DNA of 64,000 nt from Jiella sonneratiae (GTDB taxonomy: Bacteria; Pseudomonadota; Alphaproteobacteria; Rhizobiales; Rhizobiaceae). Below are positions 26,140 through 58,678 of this stretch, piece by piece. Where the stretch lies: the NCBI RefSeq assembly GCF_017353515.1, contig NZ_JAFMPY010000010.1:62001-126000 (forward strand), written 5' to 3'. The notes below the pieces were generated by a model. It worked only from the letters and a program-made list of their open reading frames with translations, did not search any database and was not told the DNA's origin. How positions within the stretch are numbered: the stretch's first letter is position 1; every line of letters begins with the position of its first letter. Both the position numbers and the translations under genes were made by a program.

Positions 26140-26700
<561 letters not shown>

Positions 26701-27938: not shown

Positions 27939-27949
27939 GGGTGTGTGAG

Positions 27950-36907: not shown

Positions 36908-39390
<2,483 letters not shown>

Positions 39391-39690
39391 CGCCACCCGC
39401 CCGCTGCCGGCCCCGCCTCAACGCCAGGCGTCGCCAGTGCTTGGAAACGAAACCGCCTCATCCTATCGAAAACGCCGTGCCCGTAAACCCACCCGCCCTC
39501 GCGTCGCGGGTCCCGCCGCAGCCGCCCGCAAGGCCTCCGGCTCATATGTCACGACTGTTTCGCGCGCATTTCGTCGATGGGGCGCAGTGTGGCCGAACCG
39601 CGGCGTTCCTGCGTCACGCACGGCCGCCCGCTTCGAGACGGCACGACGGGTCCGGGCCCGGCCCCGCCGCAGCGGCGCCGGCGGCGGGGC
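39391..39690. other. Spacer between the response regulator and the HAMP kinase, with terminator
   Basis: 300 bases, no gene. At 39661-39690 a perfect 10-bp inverted repeat (GCCCCGCCGC / GCGGCGGGGC) immediately follows the response-regulator stop and likely ends that transcript. The kinase gene therefore probably has its own promoter in the rest of the spacer, which I cannot pinpoint. Confidence 0.55.
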
Positions 39691-40404
39691 TCAGTCGGGC
39701 GAGAACATGTAGCCGGCGCCGCGCACCGTGCGGATCACCGTCGGCTTGCCGGGGTCCGGCTCGATCTTGCGGCGGATGCGGGTGATCCTGACGTCCACCG
39801 CCCGGTCGAACGGCTCGCTGTCGCGGGCGCTGGCGAGATCGAGCAGGCGCTCGCGCGACAGCACCCGCCGGGGATTTTCGGCGAACGCCTTGAGGAGCGA
39901 GAATTCGCTGTGGACCAGCGGCTGCTCGTCGCCGTCCTCGCCGCGCAGCGACTGGGCGTCGAGATCGAGCCACTTGGTGCCGAAGCGGATCTCGCGGCGC
40001 GGCGTCGCCGGCTCCGCCTCGCGCGGCACGGCTGGGCCGCCGGCGCGGCGCAGCACCGAGCGGATCCGCGCGAGCAGCTCGCGCAGCTCGCACGGCTTGG
40101 CGAGGTAGTCGTCGGCGCCGAGCTCCAGCCCGACGACGCGGTCGACGAGGCTCGCCGTCGCCGTCAACATGATCACCGGGACGTCGGTCTCGGCCTTCAG
40201 CCGGCGGACGATCGACAGACCGTCCTCTCCGGGCATGTTGAGGTCGAGGACGATGAGGTCGGGCCGCTCGAGCGCCATCTGGTCGCGCATCGCCGCGCCG
40301 CCTTCGAGCAGCCGCGTGCAGTAGCCGTTCATGGCGAGATAGTCGCCGATGAGTTCCCGCGTCTCCGGCTCGTCGTCGACGACGAAAATCCTTGGTTCCA
40401 CCAT
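39691..40404 (-). CDS. OmpR-family response regulator
   Basis: 237 residues. Receiver with VVDDEPETRELIGDYL, phospho-acceptor Asp54 (VLDLNMPGEDG) and Lys in LAKPCELRELLARI. The DNA-binding winged helix has LVHSEFSLLKAFAENPRRVLSRERLL and RAVDVRITRIRRKIEPD, ending TVRGAGYMF. Four bases after the REC-DUF3369 kinase, so they form a pair. Confidence 0.94.
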   Translation of the reverse strand: MVEPRIFVVDDEPETRELIGDYLAMNGYCTRLLEGGAAMRDQMALERPDLIVLDLNMPGEDGLSIVRRLKAETDVPVIMLTATASLVDRVVGLELGADDYLAKPCELRELLARIRSVLRRAGGPAVPREAEPATPRREIRFGTKWLDLDAQSLRGEDGDEQPLVHSEFSLLKAFAENPRRVLSRERLLDLASARDSEPFDRAVDVRITRIRRKIEPDPGKPTVIRTVRGAGYMFSPD

Positions 40405-40408: not shown

Positions 40409-42133
40409 TCAGCCTGCCTCCCGGAGCGGCACCAGGATCGAAAAGGTGGCGCCGCCGAGCGAACCCTTTTCCGCGACGACGATCTCGCCCTGATGCAGCT
40501 CGACGATCTTCGCGACGATCGACAGGCCGAGCCCGGTCGAGCTCTCGCCCCCCGTCGGCTGCGCCGACAGCCGCTGGAACCGGCCGAACAGCCGGACCAT
40601 GTCCTGGCTTTCGAGGCCGGGCCCGGAATCGGAGACCGTCACCTTCGCCTGGTTGCCCGCACGCGCGGCCTCCACCTTGATGGTGCCGCCGACGGGCGCG
40701 TACTTCATTGCGTTGCTGACGAGATTGTCAATCGCCTCGGCCAGCCGGTCCGGATCGCCGGTGACGCGCAGCGGGCCCTCCACCGTCACGTCGAGGCGCT
40801 GCTGCTTCTTCTCGGCGAGCGCCCGGCTGAGTTCGGCGGTGGCGCGGGTGATCGCGGAAAGATCGACGCGCCGCCTGTCGACGGTGATGTCGAGAGCGTC
40901 GGCGAGCGCGTCGGCGATCGACATCTCGACGATGCGGGTCATCCGTTCGGCGGAGGCGCGGATGTGGTCGACCTGTCTGGCGAAGCGCTCGCGCAGCGTT
41001 CCCTCCAGCGATTCGGTGAGGCTCGTCAGCATCTCGCCCCTGCCGAGGATCACCGCGATCGGGTTCTTCAGGTCGTGGGCGATGGTGCCGAGGATCTCGT
41101 TCTTGAAGGCGTTGACGCGCTTCAGCAGCGCCCCCTGCGCCATCAGCCTCTCATTGGCGGAGGCAAGCTCGCGGGTGCGCTTGGCGACGCGTTCCTCCAA
41201 TTCCTCGTTGGCCTTGCGCAGCTCGTCGTAGAGACGGGCATTGTCGAAGGCGATGGCGAGCTTTGCCGAGAACACCGAGACGAGCGAGACCTGGGTCTCG
41301 GAGAGCTCGCTCTCCGTCGCCAGCGCGACGAGGATCTCGGCGCCGCTGCCGGTCTTGACGAACAGGCAGACGAGGCCGTCCTGGCGGATCGGCCGGCCGG
41401 CGGCGGCGGCCGCGGCCGCGAATAGCTCGCTGCGGTCGACGCCGCTCTCCTCGAAGGTCTCGAACTTGCCGAGGCCGGCGAGCACCAGCGGCGAGGTGCC
41501 GGCGGTCTCGCGCATGATCAGGATGCCGTCGGTCTCGATCTCGAGCAGCGCGCTGATCTGGATGAGGACGCCGTGCGCCAGGGTCTTCAGCGACCGGTCG
41601 TCGAACAGCGAGGCGGAGGCGCCGACGATCATCTCCAGGCCGACCCGCGTGTCGTCGAGGCGCTTCAGCTGGTCGTAGCCGCGCAGCGCCGCCGTCAGCG
41701 TCGTGAACAGCCGGTCGGCGGTCAGCTCGGTCTTGGCCTTGTAGTCGTTGATGTCGTAGTCGACGACGACCTGGCGTTCCGGCGCCTGGCCCGGCTGGCC
41801 GGTGCGCAGGACGATGCGCACGAGTTCGTTCTTCAAATCCTCGCGGATCGCCTTGGCGAGCCTCAGGCCGGCGTCCTCGGTCTCCATCACCACGTCGAGC
41901 AGCACAACAGCGGTGTCGGGATGTGCTTTCAGGAGTTCCAGCCCCTCGCGCGCCGAATGGGCGCCGATGATCTCCAGCCCGTAGCCGTGCAGGGCGAAGT
42001 GCTGCAGCGCGAACCGCGTGCCCTGATGCACCGCCTCGTCGTCGTCGATGACGGCGAGCTTCCAGCCGGCCTTGACCGGCGTCTGGGCCACCGCGTCCTC
42101 GGACTCGGCAAATTCGAGGAAATCTGTCGTCAT
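40409..42133 (-). CDS. Cytosolic hybrid histidine kinase REC-DUF3369-HisKA-HATPase
   Basis: 574 residues without TM segments. It starts with a receiver domain (phospho-acceptor Asp80 in VVLLDVVMET), followed by DUF3369 (about 125-290, GAF-like), a coiled coil and a HisKA domain with His353 (GTIAHDLKNPIA). The HATPase domain includes LAEAIDNLVSNAMKYAP and STGLGLSIVAKIVELH. An N-terminal receiver on a kinase usually means it is itself controlled by another phosphorelay. It is transcribed ahead of the regulator at 39691. ATG 42133 is used; an in-frame GTG at 42163 is possible. Confidence 0.91.
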   Translation of the reverse strand: MTTDFLEFAESEDAVAQTPVKAGWKLAVIDDDEAVHQGTRFALQHFALHGYGLEIIGAHSAREGLELLKAHPDTAVVLLDVVMETEDAGLRLAKAIREDLKNELVRIVLRTGQPGQAPERQVVVDYDINDYKAKTELTADRLFTTLTAALRGYDQLKRLDDTRVGLEMIVGASASLFDDRSLKTLAHGVLIQISALLEIETDGILIMRETAGTSPLVLAGLGKFETFEESGVDRSELFAAAAAAAGRPIRQDGLVCLFVKTGSGAEILVALATESELSETQVSLVSVFSAKLAIAFDNARLYDELRKANEELEERVAKRTRELASANERLMAQGALLKRVNAFKNEILGTIAHDLKNPIAVILGRGEMLTSLTESLEGTLRERFARQVDHIRASAERMTRIVEMSIADALADALDITVDRRRVDLSAITRATAELSRALAEKKQQRLDVTVEGPLRVTGDPDRLAEAIDNLVSNAMKYAPVGGTIKVEAARAGNQAKVTVSDSGPGLESQDMVRLFGRFQRLSAQPTGGESSTGLGLSIVAKIVELHQGEIVVAEKGSLGGATFSILVPLREAG

Positions 42134-42381
42134 GGCTCCGTCGTTCGTCGTCCGGTCGATCACGACCCCGGCGTGGAAATTCGTTCTTCGGCTAACGGTC
42201 TACGACGGATCATAACCGAGCGTAAGCTCTTGGACCAGCAGATGTCGCGGCGAAACGGTCGGCGCGCGCCCCGGCCGCCCCCAGGGCCGATGCGAGGCGG
42301 CCGGCCGGTGTCGCAAATCGATGGTGCCGGTCGCCCGGAAGAAGGCGCGGCCGGGCACCGGCGCCGGCGGGCGGTCTCGCG

Positions 42382-42939: not shown

Positions 42940-43749
42940 ATGCAGTCATTCGACGGACTCGACCAGGAACTGGACCAGTGGTCGGCGGCGGGCCGGACGG
43001 TGTCCCTGTGGTGGCGCGACGACGACGCGGTCGCCGCGACGCCGCAGCTGACGCGGCTCGTCGCGATGGCGAGGCGGCACCGCCTGCCCCTGGCGATCGC
43101 CGCGGTGCCGGCGCGGATGCAGCCGGATCTCGTCGGGGCGCTTTCGGCGCCGGGGCTGACGGTGCTGCAGCACGGCTATGCCCACATCAACCAGGCGGCG
43201 CCCGGCGGACGGGCCGTCGAATGCGGCGGCGACCGCGCCGCCAAGGACGTCTTTTCCGAACTGCGCGACGGGATGCGCGGCCTGATGCGCACCTTCGGGG
43301 CGAGCTTCCTGCCGGTGCTCGTGCCGCCGTGGAACCGCATCGACCCGGGCGTCGCCGCGAGCCTTGCCCAGGAGGGCTATCTCGGCCTGTCGAGTTTCGG
43401 CCCGCGGCACCACGCCGGCCGCGGCGGCGCCGGTTCGAGCGACGGCGCGCCGCTGATCCTGCCGCCGCGCTGCGCCGCGATCAACGCCCATCTCGATCTT
43501 CTCACCTGGAAGGGCGGGCCGGCCTTCGCCGGCGCCGAGAAGCTGATCCGGCTGTTCGCCGAACGGCTGGAGGACCGCCGGCTCGCCCGCACCGATCCGG
43601 ACGAGCCCTTCGGCATCCTGACCCACCATCTCGACCACGACGAGGCGAGCTGGTCGTTCCTCGAGCGCCTGCTCGGCCGGCTCGGATCGCATCCGGCGAT
43701 CCGCTTCCAGCCGATCACCACGCTCGTCGCCGAAGCGCCGGTGCGCTGA
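42940..43749 (+). CDS. Polysaccharide deacetylase-family protein
   Basis: 269 residues. Motifs of the carbohydrate esterase 4 (NodB-like) fold are recognisable in modified form: WWRDDDAV in place of TFDDG, HGYAHIN for the metal-binding HxxxH, and VLVPPWNRID. It should remove acyl groups from a glycan or be a related hydrolase. A GGAAGAG is close to the ATG. The acetyltransferase gene follows after 2 bases. Cytoplasmic by the absence of a signal peptide, so it may act on a sugar precursor. Confidence 0.8.
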   Translation: MQSFDGLDQELDQWSAAGRTVSLWWRDDDAVAATPQLTRLVAMARRHRLPLAIAAVPARMQPDLVGALSAPGLTVLQHGYAHINQAAPGGRAVECGGDRAAKDVFSELRDGMRGLMRTFGASFLPVLVPPWNRIDPGVAASLAQEGYLGLSSFGPRHHAGRGGAGSSDGAPLILPPRCAAINAHLDLLTWKGGPAFAGAEKLIRLFAERLEDRRLARTDPDEPFGILTHHLDHDEASWSFLERLLGRLGSHPAIRFQPITTLVAEAPVR

Positions 43750-44772: not shown

Positions 44773-46101
44773 TCACGCCACGGCGACCAGGCCCAGCGGT
44801 TCGGCGACGCCGGCCACCCGGCAGTCCGGCAGATGACGGAACAGGCGCGGCGGGCGATAGCCTTCCAGGATCGCCGCCTCGAGCGTCGCCGCCGTCGTCA
44901 GCGCCGCCGTCGCCTCGACCTTGTTGTGCTTCTCCATCTTGGCGGCGAGGTTCACGGCCTCGCCGATCACCGTGTATTCCAGCCGCGCCTCGTCGCCGAG
45001 CGCCGCGAAAATGACCCGCCCGGCCGTCGCCGCCCCGTTGACCGCAAGGCGCGAGCCCGTCGCCATCTGCAGCTCCTCGGTCCATTCCGCTGCCGCCTCG
45101 ACGATCTCGACGAGGGCCGAGAGCGCGTCGGCGGCCGGCGTCTTGCTCTCGCGCCCCGCGCCGAAGGTCGCCAGCATGCCGTCGCCGAGATATTTGTCGA
45201 CGATGCCGCCATGCTTCTCGACGACCGGGACGACGATCGCGTGCAGGGAGACCAGCGCGGCGACGACCTCCTTCGGGTCGCGGCCGGCGGCAAAGGCCGA
45301 GAAGCCGCGGATGTCGAGGACGACGATGGCGGCGTTGCGCTCGACGCCCTCGCCGGCGACGATCGCCTCCTTCGAGGCGGTGATCGCCGCCTCGACAGGA
45401 GCCGGCAGGAAGCGCCGGATCTCGGCCCGCTCGGCCTGTTCGCGGGCGGTCTTCGTCACCAAAGTCCGGGCTCGTGCGACGGCGATGGCGAGGATCGCGG
45501 AGACCGCGACCATGACGACGATCTTGTCGATCTCGGCGCCGATGAGGATGCGGGTGCCGTCGACATAGTCGACGAAGCTGCGGGTGATCGCGCCGCTGCC
45601 GTCTCTGGCGATCGCCAGAAGAACGAGGCCGAGCCAGCCGAAGGCGGCGACGAGGCCGGTGAGAAGGACCCAGATCGGATCGAATCTGAGGGCCCGCAGC
45701 GCGATGAACACGAAGACGTAGAGGACCGTCGGCGCCTTCAGGGAAAAGGCGTGGGGCTGGCCGTATTGCAGGTGGAACGACCAGATCAGCGCATAGAGGA
45801 GCGCGACGTCGACGAGCAGCGAGGCGAAGAGGAAGAGCCGCGGCAGGGCGGCGCGGTGCGACAGATAGAGCCTGAGCAGCGTCAGGCCGAGATAGGTGCC
45901 GAGACCGACCGGCACGAGGCTCTGCGACATCGAATCGACCGGCTTCGGCGCCACGAAGTAGAGCCCGAGCAGGAACAGAGCGAGGGCGAACTGCACCCAG
46001 CCGGTCAGACGTTCGCTGGCGGCGTCGAAGCGCAGGATGTCGGCGGCAACGCGCGAGGGCAGGGCGCCCGACCCGCGCGCAAAGACGAGCCCCTTCAACA
46101 T
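44773..46101 (-). CDS. Membrane-bound class III adenylate/guanylate cyclase
   Basis: 442 residues. The N-terminal half has about six TM segments (roughly 33-51, 62-80, 90-110, 125-137, 144-163 and 193-212). A coiled linker leads to a class III cyclase domain with the metal-binding Asp263 (VVLDIRGFSAF) and Asp307. Substrate-determining Lys303 is in VDKYLGDGML, Thr377 is in YTVIG and Asn384 is in EAVNLAAK. Lys388 replaces the usual Arg. It looks catalytically competent. It is convergent with the acetyltransferase and divergent from the glycosyltransferases. GGGAGGGCGGA precedes the ATG at 46101. Confidence 0.88.
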   Translation of the reverse strand: MLKGLVFARGSGALPSRVAADILRFDAASERLTGWVQFALALFLLGLYFVAPKPVDSMSQSLVPVGLGTYLGLTLLRLYLSHRAALPRLFLFASLLVDVALLYALIWSFHLQYGQPHAFSLKAPTVLYVFVFIALRALRFDPIWVLLTGLVAAFGWLGLVLLAIARDGSGAITRSFVDYVDGTRILIGAEIDKIVVMVAVSAILAIAVARARTLVTKTAREQAERAEIRRFLPAPVEAAITASKEAIVAGEGVERNAAIVVLDIRGFSAFAAGRDPKEVVAALVSLHAIVVPVVEKHGGIVDKYLGDGMLATFGAGRESKTPAADALSALVEIVEAAAEWTEELQMATGSRLAVNGAATAGRVIFAALGDEARLEYTVIGEAVNLAAKMEKHNKVEATAALTTAATLEAAILEGYRPPRLFRHLPDCRVAGVAEPLGLVAVA

Positions 46102-46440
46102 TCCGCCCTCCCGGTGTCGCCGCATTTTCTTGCGGCCTTCAGGGCAGCGTTCGCCGGAATTGCCGGCCGTGCAACCATCTCCCTGCGTCAACTCTGTGTG
46201 ACGAAGGCCGGTGTCGGAATCCGGGAACGGGCGGCGAAAACCGGCCTCGCCGACGCGCTTCGCTTGATCGGGGCGTTGCGACGCAATAGTTAGGGCGATC
46301 GTTGCGGGCTGGGCCGAACTGCCGGAAACGGCCGGTCGCGCTCCGACGGGGAAGAATGTGCGTCCGGCAGACGCGGGCAAGGGAGCACGACGCCCGCGGC
46401 CGCCCGGAAGGCGTCAATCAGGGCTGCGCCAGGAGTTGCC
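46102..46440. other. Divergent spacer between cyclase and glycosyltransferase genes
   Basis: 339 bases without a gene. A small palindrome TTGCGACGCAA (46276-46286) could be an operator. AGGAG five bases before 46441 is the ribosome site of the first glycosyltransferase. No confident promoter. Confidence 0.45.
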
Positions 46441-47697
46441 ATGCAGTCTCGCTCTCCACGCATCCTGATCTACAGCCACGATACCTTCGGTCTCGGGCAT
46501 CTGCGGCGCAGCCGGGTCATCGCCCAGGCGCTCGTCGACCACCGGCCGGAGACCTCGATCCTGATCGTCGCCGGCTCGCCGGTCGTCGGCTCCTTCAGCT
46601 TCCCGCCGCAGGTCGACTTCATCCGCGTGCCCGGCGTCGTGAAGCTCGGGGCCGACAGCTACGCGCCGTCCAATCCCGGCCTTTCGATCGAGGATCTCAC
46701 CGAGATCCGCTCGGCGATCATCACCAAGACCGCCGAGATCTTCGATCCCGACATCTTTCTCGTCGACAAGGAGCCGCTCGGCATGCGCGGCGAGGTGGCC
46801 GAGAGCCTCGCCTTCCTGAAGACCACCGGCTGCCGCCTGGTCCTCGGCCTGCGCGACATCATGGACGAGCCCTCCCGGCTCACCGAGGAATGGCAGCGCA
46901 AGGGCGCCTTCGCGGCGGTCGAGGAGCTCTACGACGACGTCTGGGTCTACGGCCTGCCGGAAATCTGCGATCCGCTCGACGGAATCGGCGTCTCCGAGCG
47001 GGTGCGCCGGCGGGCGGTGTTCACCGGCTACCTGCCGCGGGCGGACGAGCCCTCCGGCGCGCTGCCCGACCACATCCGCATCGGCGAGCGGCCCTTCGTG
47101 CTGGTCACCACCGGCGGCGGCGGCGACGGCGCCCGCCTCGTCGACTGGGTGCTGCGGGCCTATGAGAGCGATCCGTCGATCGGCGTTAGGGCGAAGATCG
47201 TGCTCGGCCCGTTCATGGAGACCGGCTATGCCAGCGACTTCCAGGCCCGCGCGCGGAAGCTCGACAGCGTCGACCTGATCACCTTCGCCGCGTCGATCGA
47301 GCCGCTGTTCGAGCGCGCCGAGGGCGTCGTCGCGATGGGCGGCTACAACACATTCTGCGAGATCCTCTCCTTCGACAAGCCGGCGGTGATCGTGCCGCGC
47401 CGCCACCCGCGGCTGGAGCAGTTCATCCGCGCCTCGCGGGCCGAGGACCTCGGCCTCGCCCGCATGCTCCTCGACGACGAGGCCGAGAACGCGGCGATCA
47501 TGGCGGAGGCGATCCGAATGCTGCCGCGCCAGCAGAAGCCGCAGTCGGCCGAGATCGAGAAGCTGCTCGGCGGGGTCGAGACGATCCGACGGCTCGTCGA
47601 CGACATCATCGCCGAGCGGCGGCGGGCCCCGGCCGTCCTGCGCGGCACCGGCCCGGCCGAGGCGCAGCGGCAGGTCACTCGCTTCGCGCGGCCATGA
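46441..47697 (+). CDS. Glycosyltransferase, MurG/GT28-like (first of three)
   Basis: 418 residues of a GT-B-like two-domain fold. The N-terminal IYSHDTFGLGHLRRSRVIAQAL loop and the C-terminal donor motif MGGYNTFCEILSFDKPAVIVPRRHPRLEQ resemble MurG/UDP-sugar glycosyltransferases. It shares the GLGHLRR and GYNT features with the gene at 48995, so the two are likely paralogues. No TM segment; it acts on the cytoplasmic side. The next gene overlaps by 4 bases. Acceptor and sugar unknown. Confidence 0.84.
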   Translation: MQSRSPRILIYSHDTFGLGHLRRSRVIAQALVDHRPETSILIVAGSPVVGSFSFPPQVDFIRVPGVVKLGADSYAPSNPGLSIEDLTEIRSAIITKTAEIFDPDIFLVDKEPLGMRGEVAESLAFLKTTGCRLVLGLRDIMDEPSRLTEEWQRKGAFAAVEELYDDVWVYGLPEICDPLDGIGVSERVRRRAVFTGYLPRADEPSGALPDHIRIGERPFVLVTTGGGGDGARLVDWVLRAYESDPSIGVRAKIVLGPFMETGYASDFQARARKLDSVDLITFAASIEPLFERAEGVVAMGGYNTFCEILSFDKPAVIVPRRHPRLEQFIRASRAEDLGLARMLLDDEAENAAIMAEAIRMLPRQQKPQSAEIEKLLGGVETIRRLVDDIIAERRRAPAVLRGTGPAEAQRQVTRFARP

Positions 47698-48872
47698 GGA
47701 TCGCATTTCACGCGCCGATGAAGGCGCCGGACGACCCCGTCCCCTCGGGCGACAGGCTCGTCGCCCGGAACCTCGTCGCGGCGCTCGAACGGGGCGGCCA
47801 CGAGGCGACGCTGGCCGCGCGCTTCAGGAGCTACGACCGCGGCGATCCGGAACGCCAGGCGAGGCTGGAGCTGGTCGGCCGCCGGCTCGCCGGGCGCCTC
47901 GTTTGCCGGCTAACTGATCCGGCGCTGCGTCCCGACCTCTGGTTCACCTACCACCTCTATCACAAGGCGCCCGACCATCTCGGCCCGGCGGTCTCTGCGG
48001 CGCTCGACATTCCCTATGTGGTCGCCGAAGCCTCGGTGGCGGGAAAGCAGCGCGGCGGACCCTTCGACCGGGGCTTTCGCGCCAGCCTCGCCGCCCTTGC
48101 GCGGGCCGACCTCGTGGTCACGCTCAACCCGGGCGACGCGGCGGGCGTCGCGCCGCATCTGCGCCCGGGGGTTGCGATGCTGTCGCTGCCGCCGTTCATC
48201 GACGGTGCGCCTTTCGCCGCGGCCCGCCGCGACCGCGAGGCGGCCCGCGCGGAGCTGGCGCGGCGGTTCACCCTCGACACGGGGCGGATCTGGCTGGTCG
48301 CGGCGGCGATGATGCGGGCCGACCAGAAGCTCGCCTCCTACCGCCTCCTCGCAGACGCCCTCGGGGGGCTTGGCGGCGCGCCGTTCGAACTCCTCGTCGC
48401 CGGCGCCGGTCCCGCCGAGGCGGCGGTGCGCTCCGCCTTTGCCGATGCCGGGATCAAGGCGCATTTCCTCGGCGAGGTTCCGGCCGGCGCGATGCCGGCG
48501 CTCCTTGCCGCGTCGGACCTCTATGTCTGGCCGGCGGTCAAGGAAGCCTTCGGCATGGCGCTGATCGAGGCGCAGGCCGCCGGGCTCCCTGTGGTCGCTG
48601 GCGCGAGCCCCGGCGTTGCGAGCGTCGTTGAGCATGACGCGACGGGCCTCCTCGTTCCCCCCGGCGACGCCGCGGCCTTCGGCGCCGGCGTCGCGTCGCT
48701 CCTTAATCCGCGGCGGCGGGCGGAATTTTCCGCGGCGGCAAGGCGGCGGGCGCTCGCGACCCACGACATCGCCGGGGCCGCCGCACGGCTCGGCGCCGCG
48801 CTTTCCGAGACATGCGAAAGTTTCCGGGCCGCCCGGTCCCTGCCCCGATTTCTGCCCCGGTCGCTGCATTGA
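47694..48872 (+). CDS. Glycosyltransferase family 4 (second of three)
   Basis: 392 residues. The C-terminal GT4 Rossmann motifs are clear: LVAGAGPAEAAV, FLGEVPAGAMPALLAASDLYVWPAVKEAFGMALIEAQAAGLPVVAGASPG, and VVEHDATGLLVPPGD, including the EX7E-type pair. Its start overlaps the previous gene (ATGA), indicating coupled translation. Probably adds a hexose from a nucleotide sugar. A Rhizobiales-type repeat follows. Confidence 0.88.
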   Translation: MRIAFHAPMKAPDDPVPSGDRLVARNLVAALERGGHEATLAARFRSYDRGDPERQARLELVGRRLAGRLVCRLTDPALRPDLWFTYHLYHKAPDHLGPAVSAALDIPYVVAEASVAGKQRGGPFDRGFRASLAALARADLVVTLNPGDAAGVAPHLRPGVAMLSLPPFIDGAPFAAARRDREAARAELARRFTLDTGRIWLVAAAMMRADQKLASYRLLADALGGLGGAPFELLVAGAGPAEAAVRSAFADAGIKAHFLGEVPAGAMPALLAASDLYVWPAVKEAFGMALIEAQAAGLPVVAGASPGVASVVEHDATGLLVPPGDAAAFGAGVASLLNPRRRAEFSAAARRRALATHDIAGAAARLGAALSETCESFRAARSLPRFLPRSLH

Positions 48873-50308: not shown

Positions 50309-52318
50309 ATGAGTGACGCAGCGGTGCTTTCGGCCTCGGCATCGCCGTCGGTTCCGGCCGACACGCCTCGTGCGGCAGCCGCGCTCCTGGCGATCGACGA
50401 TCTGTCGGTCGAGTTCCGCTCCATGGCCGGCGTCACCAAGGCGGTCTCCGGCCTGTCGATGGCGATCATGCCGGGCCGCACCGTCGCGCTCGTCGGCGAG
50501 TCCGGCTCCGGCAAGTCGGTGACCTCCCAGGCGATCCTCGGCCTCCTGCCGAAGAACGGCGTCGTCACCTCCGGCCGCATCCTGTTCCGCGACGCCGAGC
50601 TCGGCACCGTCGACCTCGCCGCGATCCCCCGTGCCTCGCCGCAGTTCCGCTCGATCCGCGGCCGCTCGATCGCCATGGTCTTCCAGGAGCCGATGACGGC
50701 ATTCTCGCCGCTCCACACCCTCGGCGACCAGATCGGCGAGATGGCCGCCGCCCATCGCGGCGCCTCGAAGGCCGAGATCCGCGCGCTGACGGCCGAGACG
50801 CTGCGGCTCGTCCGCTTTCCCGAGCCGGAGCGGGCGATGCGGATGTATCCGTTCGAACTGTCGGGCGGGCTGCGCCAGCGCGCGATGATCGCCATGGCGC
50901 TGATGTGCCGGCCGCCACTGCTGATCGCCGACGAGCCGACGACCGCCCTCGACGTCACCCTGCAGGCCCAGATCCTCAAGCTCGTCAAGGATCTGCAGGG
51001 CGAGCTCGACATGGCGGTGCTGCTGATCACCCACGATCTCGGCGTCGTCGCCAACCTCGCCGAGGAGGTCGTGGTGATGCATCACGGCCGGATCGTCGAA
51101 TCCGGCCCGGTCGAGACGATCTTCACCCGGCCGACCCATCCCTATCTCGTCTCGCTGATGAAGGCGGTGCCGGACTTTTCCGACGCCGAGCAGCGCCGGC
51201 TGAAGCCGATCCGCGAGATCCGCATCGACGCCGACGCGCTGGTCAGGCCGAAGGCGAGCGGGCCGGTGGGCGAGCCGATCCTCGAGGCGCGGGGGCTGCA
51301 GAAGAGCTTCTCGCTGCGCGGCGACCGCCGGCTCGTCGGCCGCGCCCCGGCCCGGGTGATCCGCGCGCTCGCCGACGTGTCTTTGACGGTGCGCCGCGGC
51401 GAATGCCTCGGCCTCGTCGGCGAATCGGGCTCCGGCAAGACGACGCTGGCGCGGGCGCTGATGCGGGCGGTGCCGGTCGATGCCGGCGAGATCGTGCTTC
51501 ACGGCGACGAGGGGCCTGTCGACCTCGTCTCGGCCGACCGCGAGGCGATGTTCAAGGTCAGGAAGCGCATGCAGTACGTCTTCCAGGACCCGTTCTCCTC
51601 GCTCGATCCGCGCATGACCGTCGGGGCGATCCTCGCCGAGCCGCTGGAGATCCACGAGGTCTGCGCGCCGGGCGAGCGCCGCGAGCGCGTCGAGCGTCTG
51701 CTGTCGGCGGTCGGTCTCGAGCCGAGCTTTTCCGCCCGCTACCCGCACAGCTTTTCGGGCGGCCAGCGCCAGCGGATCGGCATCGCGAGGGCGCTGGCGC
51801 TCGAGCCGGAACTCCTGATCTGCGACGAGCCGGTGGCCGCGCTCGACGTCTCGGTTCAGGCCCAGATCCTCAACCTCCTGAAGGATCTGCAGAAACTGTC
51901 GGGCCTCACCTACATCTTCATCACCCACAATCTCGCGGTGGTGAACCACATCGCCGACCGCATCGTGGTGATGTGCGACGGCGCGATCGTCGAACTCGCG
52001 CCGCGGGCCGAGCTGTTCCGCCGGCCGCTGCACCCCTACACCAAGCTGCTGATCGACGCGGTGCCGCATGCCGATCTCGCCCGACCGCTCGACTTCTCCA
52101 ACCTGCCGGAGGCCGGGCTGATCGGCCGCCGCAACTGGCCGGAACCCTTCACCGTGCGGCCGGACCGGCCGCTGCCGCCGCTCCGCGAGGTGCGGCCGGG
52201 GCATTTCGTCAGGGCCTCGAGCCTCGACGGTATCGAGGGTATCGACCAGCCGGCGGACCCGGCGGGCGTCGCGAGCCAGGTCGCCCGGGCGGTGGCCTCG
52301 CTGGAGACGCCGGCATGA
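50309..52318 (+). CDS. Fused oligopeptide-type ABC ATPase (YejF/DppDF-like), orphan
   Basis: 669 residues with two full ABC ATPase domains in tandem. Domain 1 has [23 protein letters not shown] and [12 protein letters not shown]. Domain 2 has [28 protein letters not shown] and [12 protein letters not shown]. Each is followed by the oligopeptide-transporter C-terminal [14 protein letters not shown] segment. All catalytic residues are intact. Such fusions normally go with two permeases and a binding protein; none is adjacent here. The next gene overlaps by 4 bases, making it part of the signalling/export operon. Confidence 0.92.
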
Positions 52319-55014
52319 AGCCTGCGGACCATCTCGACGAGAGCGTGTTTCGCTATGTCTGGCGCTATACCAGGCGCCAGCAGCTCTGGCTGTTCGGCGT
52401 CCTCGCGGTGTCCCTGCCGCTCTACTACCTGACGCTCGACCTGCCGAAGCGCATCGTCAACGGTCCGATCCAGGGCGACTGGCAGGCCGGCCAGACCCAG
52501 ACGCTGTTCGCCTTCTCGATTCCGCTGCCGGGCTTTCTCGGCGGCGGGTCGCTGCCGCTCTCACCCGGCTTCGAGCTCGACCGGCTCGGCGTCCTCTTCG
52601 CCCTGTCGATGACCTTCCTGTTCTTCGTCGTCGTCAACGGGCTCTTCAAGTTCTACATCTCGACCTACAAGGGCAAGCTCGGCGAGCGGCTGCTGCGGCG
52701 GCTGCGCTACCAGCTCGTCGACCGGGTCATGCGGTTTCCCACCGGCCGCTTCAGGCATGTGCGCGGCTCCGAGATCGCCTCGATGATCAAGGACGAGACC
52801 GAGCCGGTCGGCGGTTTCGGCGGCAGCGCCTTCGCCGACCCGGCGCTGCTCCTCAGCCAGGCGCTGACGGCGCTGTTCTTCATCGTGCTGCAGAACTTCT
52901 GGCTCGGGCTGGTCGCCGGCGTCGTGGTGCTGATCCAGATCCTGCTCATCCCGCGGCTGCGGCGCCGCCTCGTCGTCCTCGCCCGCTCGCGCCAGCTCAC
53001 CGCCCGTATCCTCTCGGGGCGGATCGGCGAAGTGGTCGAGGGCATCGCCTCGATCCGCACCAACGACACCTCCAATTTCGAGCGTGCCGAGCTCGGCGAG
53101 CGGCTCGGCAAGATCCTCAAGATCCGCTACGATTTCTACCAGTGGAAGTTCTTCGTGAACTTCCTCAACAACCTCATCTCGCAGATGACGCCGTTCATCT
53201 TTTATCTCGGCGGCGGCTATCTGGTGATCACCGGGCGACTCGACATCGGCCAGCTCGTCGCCGTCATCGCCGCCTACAAGGACCTGCCGTCGCCGCTCAG
53301 GGACCTGATCGCCTGGGACCAGTACCGGGTCGACGTGCAGTCGAAATACGCCCAGATCCGCGAGCAGTTCGTCGTCCCCGACCTGATTTCGGCCGATGTG
53401 CAGAAGGTCTCCTTCGACACGCCGCCGAAGCTCGACGGCGAGGTGACGGTCACCGGCCTCAGGATCAGCGACGATTCCGGCAACGACCTGCTCTATTCGA
53501 CGACGCTGAAGATCGCGCCGGGCGAGGTGGTGGCGGTGAACGGGCCGCCGGGCGGCGGCGGCGAGTATCTCGCCGAGGCGCTGGTGCGGCTGGTGCAGCC
53601 GGCAGGCGGGCGCATCGCCTTCGCGGGGACCGCCCTCGATTCCATGCCCGACGCCATTCCCGGCCGCCGCCTGGGCTATTCGGCCTCCGGGCTCTACCTG
53701 CCGCAGATGACCATCCGCGACGCGCTGACCTACGGGCTGAAGCACGTGCCGGTCCGGCGGACCGAGCGCAGCGGCCGCTCCGAGGCGGACCGCCTCGCCG
53801 AGGCGCGGCTGTCGGGCAACATCGACCTCGACATCCGCGACGACTGGATCGACTACGAGGCGGCCGGCGTCGAGGGGCCGGAGGCGCTGCCGCGGCGGCT
53901 CGCCGAAGTGCTCGACGTCGTCGAGCTGAAATCCGAGATCGCCCGCTTCGGCCTGCGCGGCAAGCTGCCCGAGAGCCTCTCCGAAACCACCGCCGACCAG
54001 ATCCTGAACGCCAGGGCGAAGTTCCGGCAGCTGTTGATCGAGGGCGGCGACGAGGACTATTTCGAAGGCTTCGACCGCAACCGCTATTCCGAATATGCCA
54101 GCGTCTTCGAGAACCTCGTCTTCGGCACGGCCGATCCCGAGGCCGACGCCGAGCGGCCGCTGGCCGAACGCAGTTCGGTGAAGGCAGCGCTCGAGGCGAG
54201 CGGCCTCGACGAGCGGCTGTCGACCATGGGGCGGCAGATCGCCGAGACGCTGATCGAGATCTTCGGCGACCTTGCGGCCGACAACCCGCTGCTCGACGAC
54301 ATCGACCTGATGGCGCCGGACGACGTCGAGACCTATCGCGCCGCCCTGCGGCGCATCGACGGCGGCAAGCGCGACGAGCGGGACGTGCGCGCCTTCCAGC
54401 GCCTTGCCTTCGGCTATGTCGAGCCGCGGCACCGGCTCGGCCTTCTCGACGAGCCGCTGAAGCAGGCGATCGTTGCGGCGCGCGACCAGTTCAGCGAAGG
54501 CCCCGCCGCCGACCTCGCCGGGGCGGTCTCGCTGCACGACCCGGCCGGCGTCAACCGGGCGGCGAGTCTGCAGGACAACATCCTGTTCGGGCGCATCGTG
54601 ACCCGCTACGCCGAGGCGCCGGGGCGGATCAACGCCGTCCTGACCGAGACGCTGCGCGAGACCGGCCTGTTCGAGGTGGTCTTCGACATCGGCCTTGCCT
54701 TCGACATCGGCAGCGGCGCCAAACGGCTTTCCGCCGGCCAGCAGCAGAAGCTGACCCTGGCGCGGGCGCTTCTGAAGCGCCCCGATCTCCTGGTGCTCAA
54801 CCGGCCGCTCTCGGCGCTCGACGGCGACAGCCAGCGCCGCATCGCGCGGGCCGTCATCGACAGCCGCGAGAGGCTCGCCGTCCCCACCCAGACGATCGTC
54901 TGGGTGCTCGCCCATGCCGATCATGCCGACCTCTTCGAGCGCACCATCGAATTCAGCGAAGGGCGGATGCGGGAAGCTGCCGGCGCGGAGGAAACGCCGA
55001 TGGAGGTGATGTGA
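52315..55014 (+). CDS. ABC-exporter-like protein with degenerate, expanded nucleotide-binding domain
   Basis: 899 residues. The first 330 or so form an ABC exporter-type membrane domain with about six hydrophobic segments and the coupling-helix-like KGKLGERLLRRLRYQLVDRV. A nucleotide-binding domain follows but is altered. Walker A is GPPGGGGE (410-417), lacking the essential Lys and Ser/Thr. Walker B reads LLVLNRP (825-831), with Asn and Arg in place of Asp-Glu. The signature LSAGQ (805-809), the D-loop SALDG and the switch His867 remain. Between Walker A and the signature are about 390 residues, against about 100 normally. Two Q-loop-like segments, ENLVFG (599-604) and DNILFG (754-759), suggest a duplicated helical subdomain. 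Probably not an ATPase by itself. Confidence 0.85.
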   Translation: MKPADHLDESVFRYVWRYTRRQQLWLFGVLAVSLPLYYLTLDLPKRIVNGPIQGDWQAGQTQTLFAFSIPLPGFLGGGSLPLSPGFELDRLGVLFALSMTFLFFVVVNGLFKFYISTYKGKLGERLLRRLRYQLVDRVMRFPTGRFRHVRGSEIASMIKDETEPVGGFGGSAFADPALLLSQALTALFFIVLQNFWLGLVAGVVVLIQILLIPRLRRRLVVLARSRQLTARILSGRIGEVVEGIASIRTNDTSNFERAELGERLGKILKIRYDFYQWKFFVNFLNNLISQMTPFIFYLGGGYLVITGRLDIGQLVAVIAAYKDLPSPLRDLIAWDQYRVDVQSKYAQIREQFVVPDLISADVQKVSFDTPPKLDGEVTVTGLRISDDSGNDLLYSTTLKIAPGEVVAVNGPPGGGGEYLAEALVRLVQPAGGRIAFAGTALDSMPDAIPGRRLGYSASGLYLPQMTIRDALTYGLKHVPVRRTERSGRSEADRLAEARLSGNIDLDIRDDWIDYEAAGVEGPEALPRRLAEVLDVVELKSEIARFGLRGKLPESLSETTADQILNARAKFRQLLIEGGDEDYFEGFDRNRYSEYASVFENLVFGTADPEADAERPLAERSSVKAALEASGLDERLSTMGRQIAETLIEIFGDLAADNPLLDDIDLMAPDDVETYRAALRRIDGGKRDERDVRAFQRLAFGYVEPRHRLGLLDEPLKQAIVAARDQFSEGPAADLAGAVSLHDPAGVNRAASLQDNILFGRIVTRYAEAPGRINAVLTETLRETGLFEVVFDIGLAFDIGSGAKRLSAGQQQKLTLARALLKRPDLLVLNRPLSALDGDSQRRIARAVIDSRERLAVPTQTIVWVLAHADHADLFERTIEFSEGRMREAAGAEETPMEVM

Positions 55015-55258
55015 CCGGAACTTGCGAGACCGTCTCCGGGGTCGGCCAGCCGGCCACGCAGCCCGCTCTTGCTGCGGCGCGCCCGGCCGTGCGAAGCTGC
55101 CGCGACGTCTGCGCCGGCGCGTGCGACGCGCCGCCGGTCGATGGCCGCCGCAGGCGGCCGACCGGCCCATGCGCGACCGGCTTCGCCGGGACGGCGCAGT
55201 CGCGACGCGAAAACGGATTGTTGGTTCTGCTCGCCCGGTCAAGTCGAGGTCGAAGACG

Positions 55259-55729
55259 ATGCTTCTGAAGTCCGAAATCGACCTTTTGAGGGCGGTGCCG
55301 CTGTTCGCCGGCATCGAGCCGAGCCGGCTGAAGCTGATCGCCTATACGGCCGAGACGGTGATGTACCGGGAGGGGCAGGTGGTCTGCCGGCAGGGCGAGC
55401 GCGGCGACGCGGCCTTCGTCCTGATGGAGGGGGAGGCGGACGTGTCGATCGCCTCGGACGGCGGGGATTTCGTCGTCGCGCATCTGAAGACCGGCGACGT
55501 CGTCGGCGAGATTGCCATCCTGTGCGACGTGCCGCGCACCGCGACGGTGACGGCGAAGACCAGGCTGTCGGCCCTCAGGGTGCGCAAGGACGCGTTTCTG
55601 CAGCTGCTCCGGCAGTTTCCCGAGGTCGCGGCCGAGGTGATGCGCGGTCTCGCCGAAAGGCTGAGCCACACCAATGCCGAGCTGGTCCGGGCCCGCAACC
55701 TCGCGGCCGGACAGGGCGGCCCGCGATGA
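55259..55729 (+). CDS. Cyclic nucleotide-binding domain protein
   Basis: 156 residues comprising one CRP-like cNMP-binding domain. The phosphate-binding cassette is intact: VGEIAILCDVPRTATV holds the Glu for the ribose 2'-OH and the Arg for the phosphate. There is no DNA-binding helix, so it is not a transcription factor; it would act by protein contact. GAGG lies 8 bases before the ATG. A 244-base spacer without a gene separates it from the ABC-like gene, and the next gene overlaps it by 4 bases. Confidence 0.9.
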   Translation: MLLKSEIDLLRAVPLFAGIEPSRLKLIAYTAETVMYREGQVVCRQGERGDAAFVLMEGEADVSIASDGGDFVVAHLKTGDVVGEIAILCDVPRTATVTAKTRLSALRVRKDAFLQLLRQFPEVAAEVMRGLAERLSHTNAELVRARNLAAGQGGPR

Positions 55730-56550
55730 GCCGTTTTTCGGCGACGGTCTGGGGAGCGCGCGGCTCGATCCCGGCGCCGGCCGCCGCCAACACCCGCTTC
55801 GGCAGCGACACCAGCTGCATCGAGCTGCGCTGCGGCGAACGGGTGATCTTCCTCGACGCCGGCACCGGCATCGTGCCGGCCGGGCGCAGGCTCTACGAGG
55901 CGAAGCGGTTCTGCTTCGACATCCTGCTCACCCACTGCCACTTCGACCACATCATGGGCCTGCCCTTCCTGCTGCCGCTCTACAAGGACCACGTGACGGC
56001 GCGGATCTTCGCCGGCCACCTCCTCGACGGCACGACCTGCCGGGAGATGGTGGAGGGCTTCATGTGCCCGCCCTACTTTCCGGTGAAGCCGAAACAGTTC
56101 GCCGCGCGGATCGACTATTGCGATTTCCGGCCGCCCGACACCGTCGACCTCGGCGACGGCATCCTCGCCCGGACCTTCCGGCTCGACCATCCGAACGGGG
56201 CGGTGGGCTACCGCATCGACCACGACGGGCGCTCCTTCTGCTACATCACCGACACCGAGCATCAGCCGGGGGTGATCGACGAGGCGCTGGTCGCCTTCGT
56301 CGCCGGCGCCGACGTGATGGTCTACGACTGCACCTATACCGACGACGACTTCGCGCGCTTCAGGGGCTTCGGCCATTCGACCTGGCAGCACGGCGTCCGG
56401 CTGTGCCGGGCTGGAAAGGTCGAGCGGCTCGTCATATTTCACCACGACGTCTCGCGCACCGACGACTGGCTGGAAGCGCTGGCCGAAGAGGCACGGGCGG
56501 AATTTGCCGGCGCCGTCGTCGCGCGCACCGGGCTGACGCTCTCGCTCTGA
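55726..56550 (+). CDS. Metallo-beta-lactamase-fold hydrolase
   Basis: 274 residues. The binuclear metal motif HxHxDH is present as THCHFDHIMG (His70, His72, Asp74, His75), with later ligands in YITDTEH and IFHHD. The layout is that of RNase Z/class II phosphodiesterase-like members. Placed between a cNMP-binding protein and a cyclase, a cyclic-nucleotide phosphodiesterase role is a fair guess, but not shown. Start overlaps the previous stop (ATGA). Confidence 0.86.
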   Translation: MSRFSATVWGARGSIPAPAAANTRFGSDTSCIELRCGERVIFLDAGTGIVPAGRRLYEAKRFCFDILLTHCHFDHIMGLPFLLPLYKDHVTARIFAGHLLDGTTCREMVEGFMCPPYFPVKPKQFAARIDYCDFRPPDTVDLGDGILARTFRLDHPNGAVGYRIDHDGRSFCYITDTEHQPGVIDEALVAFVAGADVMVYDCTYTDDDFARFRGFGHSTWQHGVRLCRAGKVERLVIFHHDVSRTDDWLEALAEEARAEFAGAVVARTGLTLSL

Positions 56551-56705
56551 GCCGTCGCCCGAGGCGGCCCGGGCAGCCGGGGCCAGACTCGCAGCGATGC
56601 CCGCCGGCGTCCCGTCCGGTCCCGGACCGCCCTGCTTCAGCGGGCTTCGGGGGGTGGGCGGACGAGATTGAGATCGCTCTCGACATCAGATGAAAGGGCA
56701 GGCGC

Positions 56706-57935
56706 ATGGGGCTCGCCGATCAGGTCAACGAATGGCTCCTGAGCGAGGCGCTCGGCGAGCCGAAGCTCGAAGACATCTTCTATCGCCTGTGCATCAAGCT
56801 GCTCGGCATCGGCGTGCCGATCTCGCGGGCGCGGCTCAACTGGCCGACGCTGCATCCCCTGTTCAGGGCCGAGATGATCTCGTGGAACCGCCACGACACG
56901 CGGGCGACGCTCGACCATTTCAACCATCAGGACTCCAACACCGAGGCCTGGCAGGCGAGCCCGCTGCGCCACATGCTGGAAAACGACCTGAGGATCCTGC
57001 GCCGGCGGCTCACCGGCCCCGGCAGGCTGGTCGACTTCCGGCTGCTCGAAGAGCTCGCGGCCAGCGGCTTCACCGACTATCTGGCGCTGAGAACGGCGTT
57101 CAGGCAGCCGGGGAAGGGCGTCGACGACACCGGCACCGGCGTCATCGTCATCTGGGCCTGCGACCGGGAGAACGGCTTCACCGAGGAGGACCTCGCGACG
57201 CTGCAGGCGATCCAGCGAAGCCTTGCCCTCGTCTGCAAGTCGATCATCCAGCAGCAGATCACCACCAACATCGTCGAGACCTATCTCGGGCGTCAGGCCG
57301 GGCGCAGCGTGCTTGAAGGCAACATCCGGCTCGGCGACGGGGCGACCACCAAGGCCCTCGTCTGGTATTCCGACCTGCGCGGTTCGACCCACCTGACGGC
57401 GAAGCTCGCCAGCGAGGATTTCCTGGCGCTGCTCAACGACTATTTCGAATGCGCCGCGCGCCCGGCGATCCGTGCCGGCGGCGAGGTGCTCGCCTTCATC
57501 GGCGACGCCGTGCTCGTGGTCTTCCCGATCGAGAACCGGGCGGAGGGCGAGGCGCTCTCGGCGAAGATCCTGCAGGCGGTGACGGAATCCTTCGCGATGC
57601 GCGACAGCGTCAACGCCGCGCGCCGCGCCGCCGGGCGCGACGAGATCGGCTTCGGCATCGGCCTCAACGTCGGCAAGGTGGTGTTCGGCAACATCGGCGT
57701 GCCGGAGCGCCTCGCCTTCACCGTCATCGGCTCGACGGTGACCGAGGTCGAGAGGATCGAGAAGCTGACGAAGGCCATGGACACCAACGTCCTCGCCACC
57801 CGGCGCGTCGCCGATCTGGTGCCCGGCCGCTGGCAGTCGGTCGGCGCGCACGCCCTCGACGGGGTCGAGGGCCCGATGGAGCTGTTCATCCCGCTCGACT
57901 GCGGCATGGCGGCGATCCGCGCCGCGGCGGAGTAG
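56706..57935 (+). CDS. Class III cyclase domain protein with altered substrate residues
   Basis: 409 residues. The N-terminal 190 residues form a GAF-like sensor and the C-terminal half is a class III cyclase domain. The metal-binding aspartates are kept (Asp223 in YSDLRGST and Asp267 in FIGDAV). The usual substrate-determining Lys is Ala263 (EVLAFIGD) and the second one is Ala337 (LAFTVIG). The transition-state Asn is Thr346, while Arg350 is kept. It may be inactive, bind another nucleotide, or work as a regulator. Last gene of the operon. Confidence 0.86.
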   Translation: MGLADQVNEWLLSEALGEPKLEDIFYRLCIKLLGIGVPISRARLNWPTLHPLFRAEMISWNRHDTRATLDHFNHQDSNTEAWQASPLRHMLENDLRILRRRLTGPGRLVDFRLLEELAASGFTDYLALRTAFRQPGKGVDDTGTGVIVIWACDRENGFTEEDLATLQAIQRSLALVCKSIIQQQITTNIVETYLGRQAGRSVLEGNIRLGDGATTKALVWYSDLRGSTHLTAKLASEDFLALLNDYFECAARPAIRAGGEVLAFIGDAVLVVFPIENRAEGEALSAKILQAVTESFAMRDSVNAARRAAGRDEIGFGIGLNVGKVVFGNIGVPERLAFTVIGSTVTEVERIEKLTKAMDTNVLATRRVADLVPGRWQSVGAHALDGVEGPMELFIPLDCGMAAIRAAAE

Positions 57936-58054: not shown

Positions 58055-58570
58055 TCAGAGCGTCAGCGGCAGGACGAAGGGCGTGCCGGCGAAGGCGGTC
58101 TCGCCGCGGCCGATCGCCTCGATCGCCGCGACCATGCGTCCGCCGCGGCCGAGCCTCTCGTCCGCCAGCGCGACGAGGCGGACGTTCGGCGTCGCCGAGG
58201 GCGAACGGCGCCTCAGTTCGTGCGCCAGCGCCGCCTCGTCGAGCTCCGGATTGATGGCGAGGGCGAGGATGTAGGCCGCGGCCGTCGAGCGGCTGATCCC
58301 GGCAAAGCAATGCACCGCGAGCGGCTTTTCGCGGCTCCAGCGGCTACCGAAGTCGATCAGCGTCTCGACATGCGTGCTCGACGGGGCGACGAAGCCGTCG
58401 ATCGGCGCGGCGATGTCATTGAAGCCGAGGAAGAGATGGCGCGGCGCCGCGATGCCGGCGGGCCGCTCGACGCGGGTTTCGGCGTTGATCAGGGTGACGA
58501 GGTCGAGGGCGCCGTGTTCGGCGACCGTCTTCGGCATGTCGGCGAGCGAGGAGACGACGAGATAGCTCAT
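58055..58570 (-). CDS. Small tyrosine/dual-specificity-type phosphatase
   Basis: 171 residues. The CX5R loop HCFAGISRST provides the nucleophilic Cys and phosphate-binding Arg; FNDIAAPIDG upstream may hold the general acid. It belongs to the compact cytosolic phosphatases common in Rhizobiales with unknown substrate. It has no signal peptide, unlike the phosphatase at 4618. Start at 58570 gives the conserved YLVVSSLADMPKTV N-terminus. Confidence 0.85.
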   Translation of the reverse strand: MSYLVVSSLADMPKTVAEHGALDLVTLINAETRVERPAGIAAPRHLFLGFNDIAAPIDGFVAPSSTHVETLIDFGSRWSREKPLAVHCFAGISRSTAAAYILALAINPELDEAALAHELRRRSPSATPNVRLVALADERLGRGGRMVAAIEAIGRGETAFAGTPFVLPLTL

Positions 58571-58678
58571 GGCGAGGCTATAGGGCGAAGCGGCCGCGAA
58601 GGCCAGCGCCCGCCCACGTCGCCGGCCCACGTCGCCGGCCCTCGTCACGGGCCGCGATGCCCGGCGCAGCGATCCGCC

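Follow-up and report, generated by a model that had tools for sequence, protein, structure and literature searches.

A predicted ABC-fold pseudo-ATPase and its cyclic-nucleotide-binding partner in a conserved glycosyltransferase locus of Alphaproteobacteria

We describe a protein family of Alphaproteobacteria, found in a 64,000-nucleotide stretch of the Jiella sonneratiae genome (Hyphomicrobiales, Aurantimonadaceae; the whole stretch is called the window below), that is modelled to keep the fold of a type IV ATP-binding cassette (ABC) exporter but has lost the residues needed for Mg-ATP binding and hydrolysis. Its gene, B, is followed by a gene, C, for a cyclic-nucleotide-binding protein, and this pair is the core of a locus that usually also encodes a conserved set of glycosyltransferases. 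We favour, at a probability of roughly 0.58, the reading that this is a surface-glycan locus of Alphaproteobacteria, the counterpart of the phazolicin-protecting polysaccharide (PPP) cluster of Sinorhizobium meliloti, in which a local cyclic-nucleotide circuit controls the ATPase-dead B through C.

In the window, B and C belong to a run of five consecutive genes that follows three glycosyltransferase genes:

A, 50309..52318, plus strand: 669 amino acids; fused two-domain Opp/Dpp-type ABC ATPase; Pfam ABC_tran (two stretches) and oligo_HPY
B, 52315..55014, plus strand: 899 amino acids; predicted ABC-exporter-fold pseudo-ATPase; Pfam ABC_membrane (PF00664, 64 bits) and ABC_tran (47 bits)
C, 55259..55729, plus strand: 156 amino acids; stand-alone cyclic-nucleotide-binding domain; cNMP_binding, 77 bits
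D, 55726..56550, plus strand: 274 amino acids; metallo-beta-lactamase (MBL)-fold, phosphodiesterase-type hydrolase; Lactamase_B_2, 68 bits
E, 56706..57935, plus strand: 409 amino acids; class III nucleotide cyclase family; Guanylate_cyc, 37 bits

These coordinates confirm the initial annotation, which was made from the sequence alone, in its five consecutive plus-strand genes, and the Pfam assignments agree with the families it proposed for A to E and with the three glycosyltransferases it placed before them. Its further statement that three of the junctions overlap or nearly do so needs correcting: A/B and C/D each overlap by 4 bp, and gaps of 244 bp and 155 bp separate B from C and D from E. 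A promoter scan found no promoter-like site (0.3 expected), and a terminator scan found one terminator-like site, inside B (2.9 expected).

The exporter-like protein B and its partner C

B had been described as exporter-like with a dead-looking nucleotide-binding domain, and the loss seen in the window holds across the family. Three features of the gene are central here:

53542..53565, plus strand: degenerate Walker A of B, GPPGGGGE, with Gly for Lys and Glu for Ser/Thr
53707..54564, plus strand: enlarged helical subdomain of B, with three copies of a [ST]V.[DE]NLL[FY]G helix-strand element
54799..54804, plus strand: degenerate Walker B and catalytic pair of B, Asn-Arg replacing Asp-Glu (Walker B reads LLVLNR)

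In an alignment of 136 distinct B proteins with 10 canonical exporters, the Walker A Lys is retained in 27 B proteins, the adjoining Ser/Thr has given way to Glu in 99 and to Asp in 25, the Walker B Asp has become Asn in 120, the catalytic Glu is retained in 25 and is Arg in 83, and the H-loop His survives in 16. When the Lys, Ser/Thr, Asp and Glu positions are scored together, with 20 further relatives added, not one of the 156 proteins has all four residues, five have three and 105 have none; the B of the window, included in this count, reads G, E, N and R. Canonical exporters at the same positions keep all four (9 of 10) or three (1 of 10). Filtering at 80% redundancy leaves 96 B proteins, of which none keeps all four residues and 45 keep none. 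These counts point to B being a family-wide pseudo-ATPase that is without the residues for Mg-ATP binding and hydrolysis.

The AlphaFold2 model of B (mean predicted local distance difference test score, pLDDT, 81.5; predicted template modelling score 0.75) finds its best Foldseek matches in the PDB among P-glycoprotein, PCAT1 and TmrAB (E 4e-14 to 7.5e-12 among the 50 matches listed). Thus, B shares its predicted fold and the transmembrane ABC_membrane domain with ATP-driven type IV exporters such as PCAT1, MsbA, TmrAB and P-glycoprotein, but differs from them in mostly lacking Walker A, Walker B, the catalytic Glu and the H-loop, and in carrying its helical element three times. The helical subdomain is about 260 residues larger, and the model places a helix and a short strand at each copy of the element. 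Compared by hhalign, the second and third copies match with 97.8% probability (E 1e-12, 58 columns), the first and third with 91%, and the first and second with 84%, although this last comparison covers just 19 columns. Segments without relation to the element, taken from B, C, D, E, GT1, GT3 and a solute-binding protein, stayed below 2%, the sole exception being a 97% match between control segment N2 and the first copy, an artefact of overlapping columns.

The main rival to our reading takes B as the degenerate half of a heterodimeric exporter in the style of TmrAB, TAP or TM287/288, with the canonical half encoded elsewhere and C serving only to tune the complex. These three transporters are among the best fold matches of B, and other ABC exporters exist in the genomes concerned. 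However, degenerate halves of heterodimeric exporters are known to keep ATP binding, and B has mostly lost the Walker A Lys and Ser/Thr in addition to Walker B and the catalytic Glu. Additionally, the locus layouts show no second exporter-like match, canonical exporters not having been searched for as such. We consider a heterodimer of this kind unlikely.

B is widespread and well conserved. At E <1e-120 it is present in 48 of 120 genomes of the order and in 70 of 192 genomes of the class, the J. sonneratiae genome included; in a phylum sample it occurs in 15 of 199 genomes (again including our own), all of them in the class, the number of non-class genomes among the 199 not being shown. Most positive genomes carry one copy. 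All ten genomes of the genus have B, in two pieces in one of them, and the first-listed named match, among those listed, is from Jiella avicenniae (83%). The genome with the divided B is G001, where at locus L047 A, B and a downstream YgfZ-like gene each match in two pieces; these split matches may be sequencing errors of that assembly, and the locus was excluded from the B alignments.

Across the class B is full length; many of its residues are invariant, and the enlargement of the helical subdomain is conserved. This bears on the suggestion that genes B to E are eroding or decorative, B being an exporter and the cyclase an enzyme in decay, with no present function. B and E have indeed lost catalytic residues, as that suggestion would have it, but the conservation of B is not that of a decaying gene, and on this ground we rejected it as one; the sites of C and D, moreover, are invariant. 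Erosion seems to us very improbable.

Linkage was counted over two sets of loci, the 80 named loci, which are the best 80 of 580 confirmed and include 25 labelled Rhizobium, and 40 class-wide loci from other orders, which are mostly the highest-scoring positives, with weaker and fused members under-represented. The stretches span 19-23 kb with a 10-kb flank and miss distant members; five class-wide loci end at contig ends (L163, L171, L180, L186 and L195), and some loci in different sets come from the same genome. Loci L041, L043, L044 and L056 were left out of alignment A1; alignment A2 holds 37 of 40 candidate relatives and alignment A3 24 of 29.

Each of the 80 named loci has C directly after B on the same strand, and so do 39 of the 40 class-wide loci. 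The two are a single open reading frame (ORF) at L059, at L197 and at 13 of 20 further loci, 15 in total; these 20 were chosen mostly for long B frames, and the count gives no frequency. Such fusions suggest direct contact between C and B. Five of the fusions, L230, L231, L232, L233 and L244, the first three of which are paralogues in one genome (G275), have a more eroded Walker A and none of the searched glycosyltransferases in their stretches, and a separate role of B-C is possible in these cases.

The cNMP_binding domain is the only Pfam match in C, which has no other domain and is in this respect the stand-alone protein originally proposed. Its phosphate-binding cassette (Gly-Glu ... Arg) is intact: among Hyphomicrobiales Gly and Arg are each present in 102 of 102 proteins and Glu in 99 of 102, class-wide Gly and Arg are kept in 39 of 39 and Glu in 37 of 39, and in a third set, where B and C are mostly fused, Gly and Arg are kept in 20 of 20. 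The residue after the cassette Arg is Thr in 102 of 102, 35 of 39 and 9 of 20 proteins of these sets, respectively. In PKG and other eukaryotic kinases, a Thr after that Arg favours cGMP.

An exporter-like protein accompanied by a cyclic-nucleotide-binding one has a precedent, as NHLM-type exporters are associated with a cNMP-domain 'bacteriocin-type transport-associated protein'. B and C match the corresponding models (TIGR03796 and TIGR03896) weakly, but with scores far below the cut-offs (112 against 853 bits and 56 against 161 bits), and Pfam finds no peptidase domain in B. What appears new here is a widespread ABC-fold protein, predicted to be a pseudo-ATPase, in which a helical element is tripled and which almost always has a cyclic-nucleotide-binding partner. 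ABC exporters define ATP-driven transport, whereas this mostly single-copy family seems to have kept the fold and not the motor, with a sensor alongside. In the open-licence literature, searched mostly by gene number, we found no published description of the B-C family, and a search for the combination of ABC, cyclic-nucleotide-binding, MBL and cyclase proteins found no paper.

The glycosyltransferase locus and its counterpart in S. meliloti

The conserved neighbourhood of B-C is larger than the initial annotation had it, and includes a deacetylase-like gene, a GNAT gene and a second class III cyclase besides the glycosyltransferases. Upstream of A the window encodes:

42988..43749, plus strand: polysaccharide-deacetylase-like gene; no Pfam match, 37% identity to an S. 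meliloti polysaccharide deacetylase family protein of the same locus
44773..46380, minus strand: second class III cyclase; Guanylate_cyc, 36 bits; diverges from GT1 and is kept in the locus of relatives
46441..47697, plus strand: GT1, GT28-type (MurG-like) glycosyltransferase; Glyco_tran_28_C
47694..48872, plus strand: GT2, GT4-type glycosyltransferase; Glycos_transf_1, 90 bits
48995..50134, plus strand: GT3, GT28-type (MurG-like) glycosyltransferase; Glyco_tran_28_C

B-C usually lies within this conserved glycosyltransferase locus. Among the named loci B is accompanied by GT1 in 72 of 80, GT2 in 34, GT3 in 73 and a separate GT4-type enzyme in 68; among the class-wide loci the counts are 33 of 40 for GT1, 32 for the GT4-type enzyme, 31 for GT2 (one of them weak), 29 for GT3 and 25 for the deacetylase. 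When the neighbourhoods of 20 other ABC exporters were searched with the same profiles, C, D, E, GT1, GT2, GT3 and the deacetylase each scored 0 of 20, and the matches seen were one weak GT4-type match, one DUF3095 match and weak A matches in 13. The linkage of B to the locus genes is thus far above chance. In five loci from other families of the order (L245-L249), a GT3-GT2-GT-GT1 block diverges from B-C-D, and in three of the five a cyclase comes next. Clustering of unassigned neighbour ORFs was uninformative, being dominated by antisense ORFs.

Conservation of gene order had been proposed as a check, and the five genes as a unit are not supported. What stays together across the class is B-C, in most cases joined by glycosyltransferases, the deacetylase and A; of the 40 class-wide stretches fetched, 1 has D and 2 have E.

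In S. meliloti 1021 the B homologue lies on pSymB at 841,720-844,393. In strain ml46 the homologous cluster is preceded by genes for a PIG-L deacetylase, a DegT aminotransferase and a sulfotransferase, and PMC5498481 gives SMb21247, SMb21248 and SMb21249 the same order and functions. Counting onwards past a glycosyltransferase and a mechanosensitive channel, the glycosyltransferase beside the deacetylase is SMb21252, and by this gene order the homologous S. meliloti cluster runs from SMb21252 on.

This is the region of the PPP cluster. Passages of PMC10128002 describe, from a transposon screen, nine genes between smb21252 and smb21271 that protect against phazolicin and name their product PPP. 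According to the same passages, mutants of smb21252 and of the glycosyltransferase gene smb21265 have a minimum inhibitory concentration (MIC) of 0.18 against 1.47 ug/mL, 8-fold lower, and insertions in cyaA, an adenylate cyclase gene located elsewhere, were depleted in the screen, with a mutant MIC of 0.74, a two-fold change only. Seven of the nine PPP genes are induced under Myxococcus attack, as stated in an excerpt of PMC10315480. The glycan context and the guess of a glycan role made initially agree with this cluster (PMC10128002), and B-C offers a testable membrane unit for it.

The PPP cluster and the window share homologues of A, B, C, D, E, glycosyltransferases and the deacetylase in one locus. 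They differ in that the PPP cluster also contains importer subunits, a lyase, a nucleotide-sugar dehydrogenase and a DUF3095 gene and has D and E at its other end, whereas in J. sonneratiae A-B-C-D-E are adjacent and a different contig carries the importer subunits and one of the glycosyltransferases.

Several other candidates from the literature were set aside. The gene msbA2 (SMb21191) is not the S. meliloti B, as its operon lies near 938 kb of pSymB (PMC3687685) and B at 841.7-844.4 kb, and PMC10659215 and PMC5596199 concern SMb21188 and msbA2 rather than B-C. A Clr-regulated cluster was considered as the same locus, but PMC5498481 concerns the neighbouring nodP2-smb21248 cluster and served here to anchor gene numbers. 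Matches to SMb20804-SMb20813 and to pRL110056 could not be tied to B-C; the latter is listed among root-colonisation genes in PMC11103875 and could not be assigned to a gene of the locus.

Hydrolase, cyclases and the proposed circuit

D and a cyclase are recurrent additions to B-C in Hyphomicrobiales, and the set of reader, breaker and maker of a cyclic nucleotide that had been proposed for the window recurs beside B in this order as C, D and a cyclase. Of the 80 named loci, 38 have D and 38 have a cyclase of some family; both figures are underestimates, as distant copies fall outside the 10-kb flank, among them D and E of S. meliloti and E of R. johnstonii.

D was expected to be an HxHxDH hydrolase, and it contains HCHFDH together with the remaining metal ligands, all of which are kept in 57 of 57 relatives. 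Its model (pLDDT 91.4) is nearest in fold to YhfI, the PhnP family and RNase Z, with Apyc1 at rank 40. D shares fold and metal ligands with these MBL phosphodiesterases but only 13-20% identity in the fold matches, and it scores 54 bits against the NCBIfam cyclic-nucleotide phosphodiesterase model NF041851 (cut-off 400). The nearest folds and the metal ligands make a phosphodiesterase-type activity of D likely.

The assignment of E to the class III cyclases holds for its family, not for a complete active site. Its nearest solved relatives are adenylyl cyclases (the photoactivated enzymes and CyaB), with which it shares the catalytic domain, the two metal-binding Asp and the Arg; both Asp and the Arg, which we take to be the transition-state residue, are present in 35 of 35 proteins. 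However, the presumed adenine-specifying Lys is kept in 1 of 35 (Ala in the window) and the presumed transition-state Asn in 17 of 35, with Thr in its place in the clade of the window. Thus, E is a cyclase by family rather than by a complete active site. The second cyclase, encoded on the minus strand, has the adenine-Lys and the Asn, and a Lys replaces its transition-state Arg, as read from the sequence; its N-terminal part is hydrophobic by eye. It occupies the same place in many Jiella and Aurantimonas loci and adjoins D in L080, L101 and L133.

Seven loci (L052, L053, L054, L080, L101, L133 and L139) encode B-C-D and a cyclase in stretches with none of the searched glycosyltransferases, that of L080 being 8.4 kb only. 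These loci suggest that the signalling genes belong with B-C itself. At L139, on chromosome 2 of Agrobacterium vitis CG78, D, both cyclase types, B and C stand in one run, with no searched glycosyltransferases within 10 kb.

A cyclase, a gated membrane effector and an MBL nuclease would also make up a Pycsar-type anti-phage system, with E as a pyrimidine cyclase. E matches the PADLOC PycC models (71 bits) and lacks the adenine-Lys, C matches Pycsar effector models (57 bits), and Apyc1 is among the fold matches of D. However, four other class III cyclases of the genome score 101.8, 90.5, 74.1 and 22.5 on the PycC model PDLC00734; three further comparators (L002, L005 and L008) were translated on the wrong strand and are uninformative. 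As three of these four outscore E, the match is generic, and we rejected the defence assignment because the PADLOC matches are of this kind. Additionally, most class-wide loci lack D and the cyclase, and the locus keeps both its link to glycosyltransferases and its order across genera. A Pycsar system is therefore hardly to be expected here.

In the messenger-controlled glycan locus that we favour, a cyclase of the locus (E, the minus-strand enzyme or both) would make a presumed cyclic-nucleotide messenger and D would remove it. C would bind the messenger and, by direct contact, switch the conformation or the partner binding of B, and B may serve, independently of ATP, as a gate or scaffold in assembling or exporting the glycan that GT1-GT3 make. 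A would be the ATPase of a separate Opp-type importer from the same ancestral locus.

Several observations weigh against this proposal. At L171, on a 5-kb contig, B has no C in the following 1.7 kb. Thirteen fused loci, all among the 20 chosen mostly for long frames, show none of the glycosyltransferases of the locus in their stretches of 6-12 kb, and B-C may therefore have a role beyond glycans. The active site of E is incomplete for an adenylyl cyclase, and the absence of D and E from the fetched stretches of most class-wide loci means that a local circuit is not needed everywhere. The fold matches of B, among those listed, are to single exporter halves, with root-mean-square deviations of 14-16 A and template modelling scores to the target of at most about 0.57, so the model fixes the fold and not the state. 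Finally, B and C are by their position likely to be among the nine PPP genes, but the passages of PMC10128002 consulted mention neither an ABC-like nor a cyclic-nucleotide-binding protein of the cluster.

A broader version would make B-C an ABC-fold machine in which control by a cyclic nucleotide has replaced ATP hydrolysis. C would then gate or rearrange B much as cNMP domains gate ion channels, the cyclase and phosphodiesterase would write and erase the signal, and the whole would be a messenger-gated glycan switch across Alphaproteobacteria. We hold this version to be tentative, possible rather than probable. If C does control B, an ABC protein has been rebuilt as a messenger-operated device, which would directly explain the effect of cyclic AMP genes on rhizobial surface polysaccharides.

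The ATPase A, its importer partners and further neighbours

A is an intact importer-type ATPase. Both of its nucleotide-binding domains carry Walker A (GESGSGK[ST]), signature and LLI.DEP motifs, and the models that fit it best over its whole length are GsiA and YejF. It shares with GsiA, YejF and OppDF the fused two-domain architecture with both sites intact, but scores below the equivalog cut-offs of GsiA and YejF (578 against 1077 and 514 against 834) and above some one-domain ones (PRK11308, NikD), and it differs further in being encoded beside glycosyltransferases and away from its permeases.

A had been called an orphan, but its importer partners are found in the same genome. In Rhizobium and Sinorhizobium A heads a run of A, solute-binding protein, permease and permease in the same locus, in Aurantimonas the permeases and solute-binding protein lie just downstream of E in 7 of 8 loci, and 52 of 80 named loci carry the solute-binding protein and 50 of 80 the first permease. 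In J. sonneratiae, two permeases and a solute-binding protein that are 82%, 90% and 73% identical, respectively, to the Aurantimonas locus proteins are encoded on contig C71 (about 25030-29100), which also carries a GT4-type enzyme (78%) and a second deacetylase in the stretch examined (L254, G000 C71:18000-36000). No Opp-type ATPase was found in the 18 kb around these importer subunits. With permeases and solute-binding protein elsewhere in the genome, A is no orphan, and the placement of importer subunits and GT4-type enzyme away from A indicates that the ancestral locus is split over two contigs. From the locus that they share in relatives, we infer that A works with the importer subunits of C71. 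The same C71 stretch contains an ORF that resembles, by eye, an NAD-dependent sugar epimerase.

These findings bear on the idea, raised initially, that A hydrolyses ATP for B in trans, the two forming one exporter. The genes do overlap by 4 bp, and A is linked to B in 71 of 80 named loci and in 25 of 40 class-wide loci. The latter count includes only A matches above 300 bits (28 of 40 at any score), a threshold set because 13 of the 20 control loci likewise give weak A matches (<=127 bits). However, A is of the Opp/GsiA/YejF type and often travels with its own binding protein and permeases, the C71 subunits lack an Opp-type ATPase nearby, and B has its own, if dead, nucleotide-binding domain. 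Thus, the linkage of A to B stands, but we rejected A as an orphan powering B, and energisation in trans appears distinctly improbable.

Two further regions of the window flank these genes. A family 5 solute-binding protein (35318-36835, minus strand; PF00496, 308 bits) adjoins genes for a sensor kinase (36904-39396), a response regulator (39691-40404) and a DUF3369 sensor kinase (40409-42163); we noticed no permeases beside it, in an analysis that made no search aimed at permeases. Just downstream of E is a gene for a small DSP-PTPase-like phosphatase (58055-58648, minus strand; PF22785, 32 bits), which is not seen in the other loci displayed and stands at this place in most loci of the genus.

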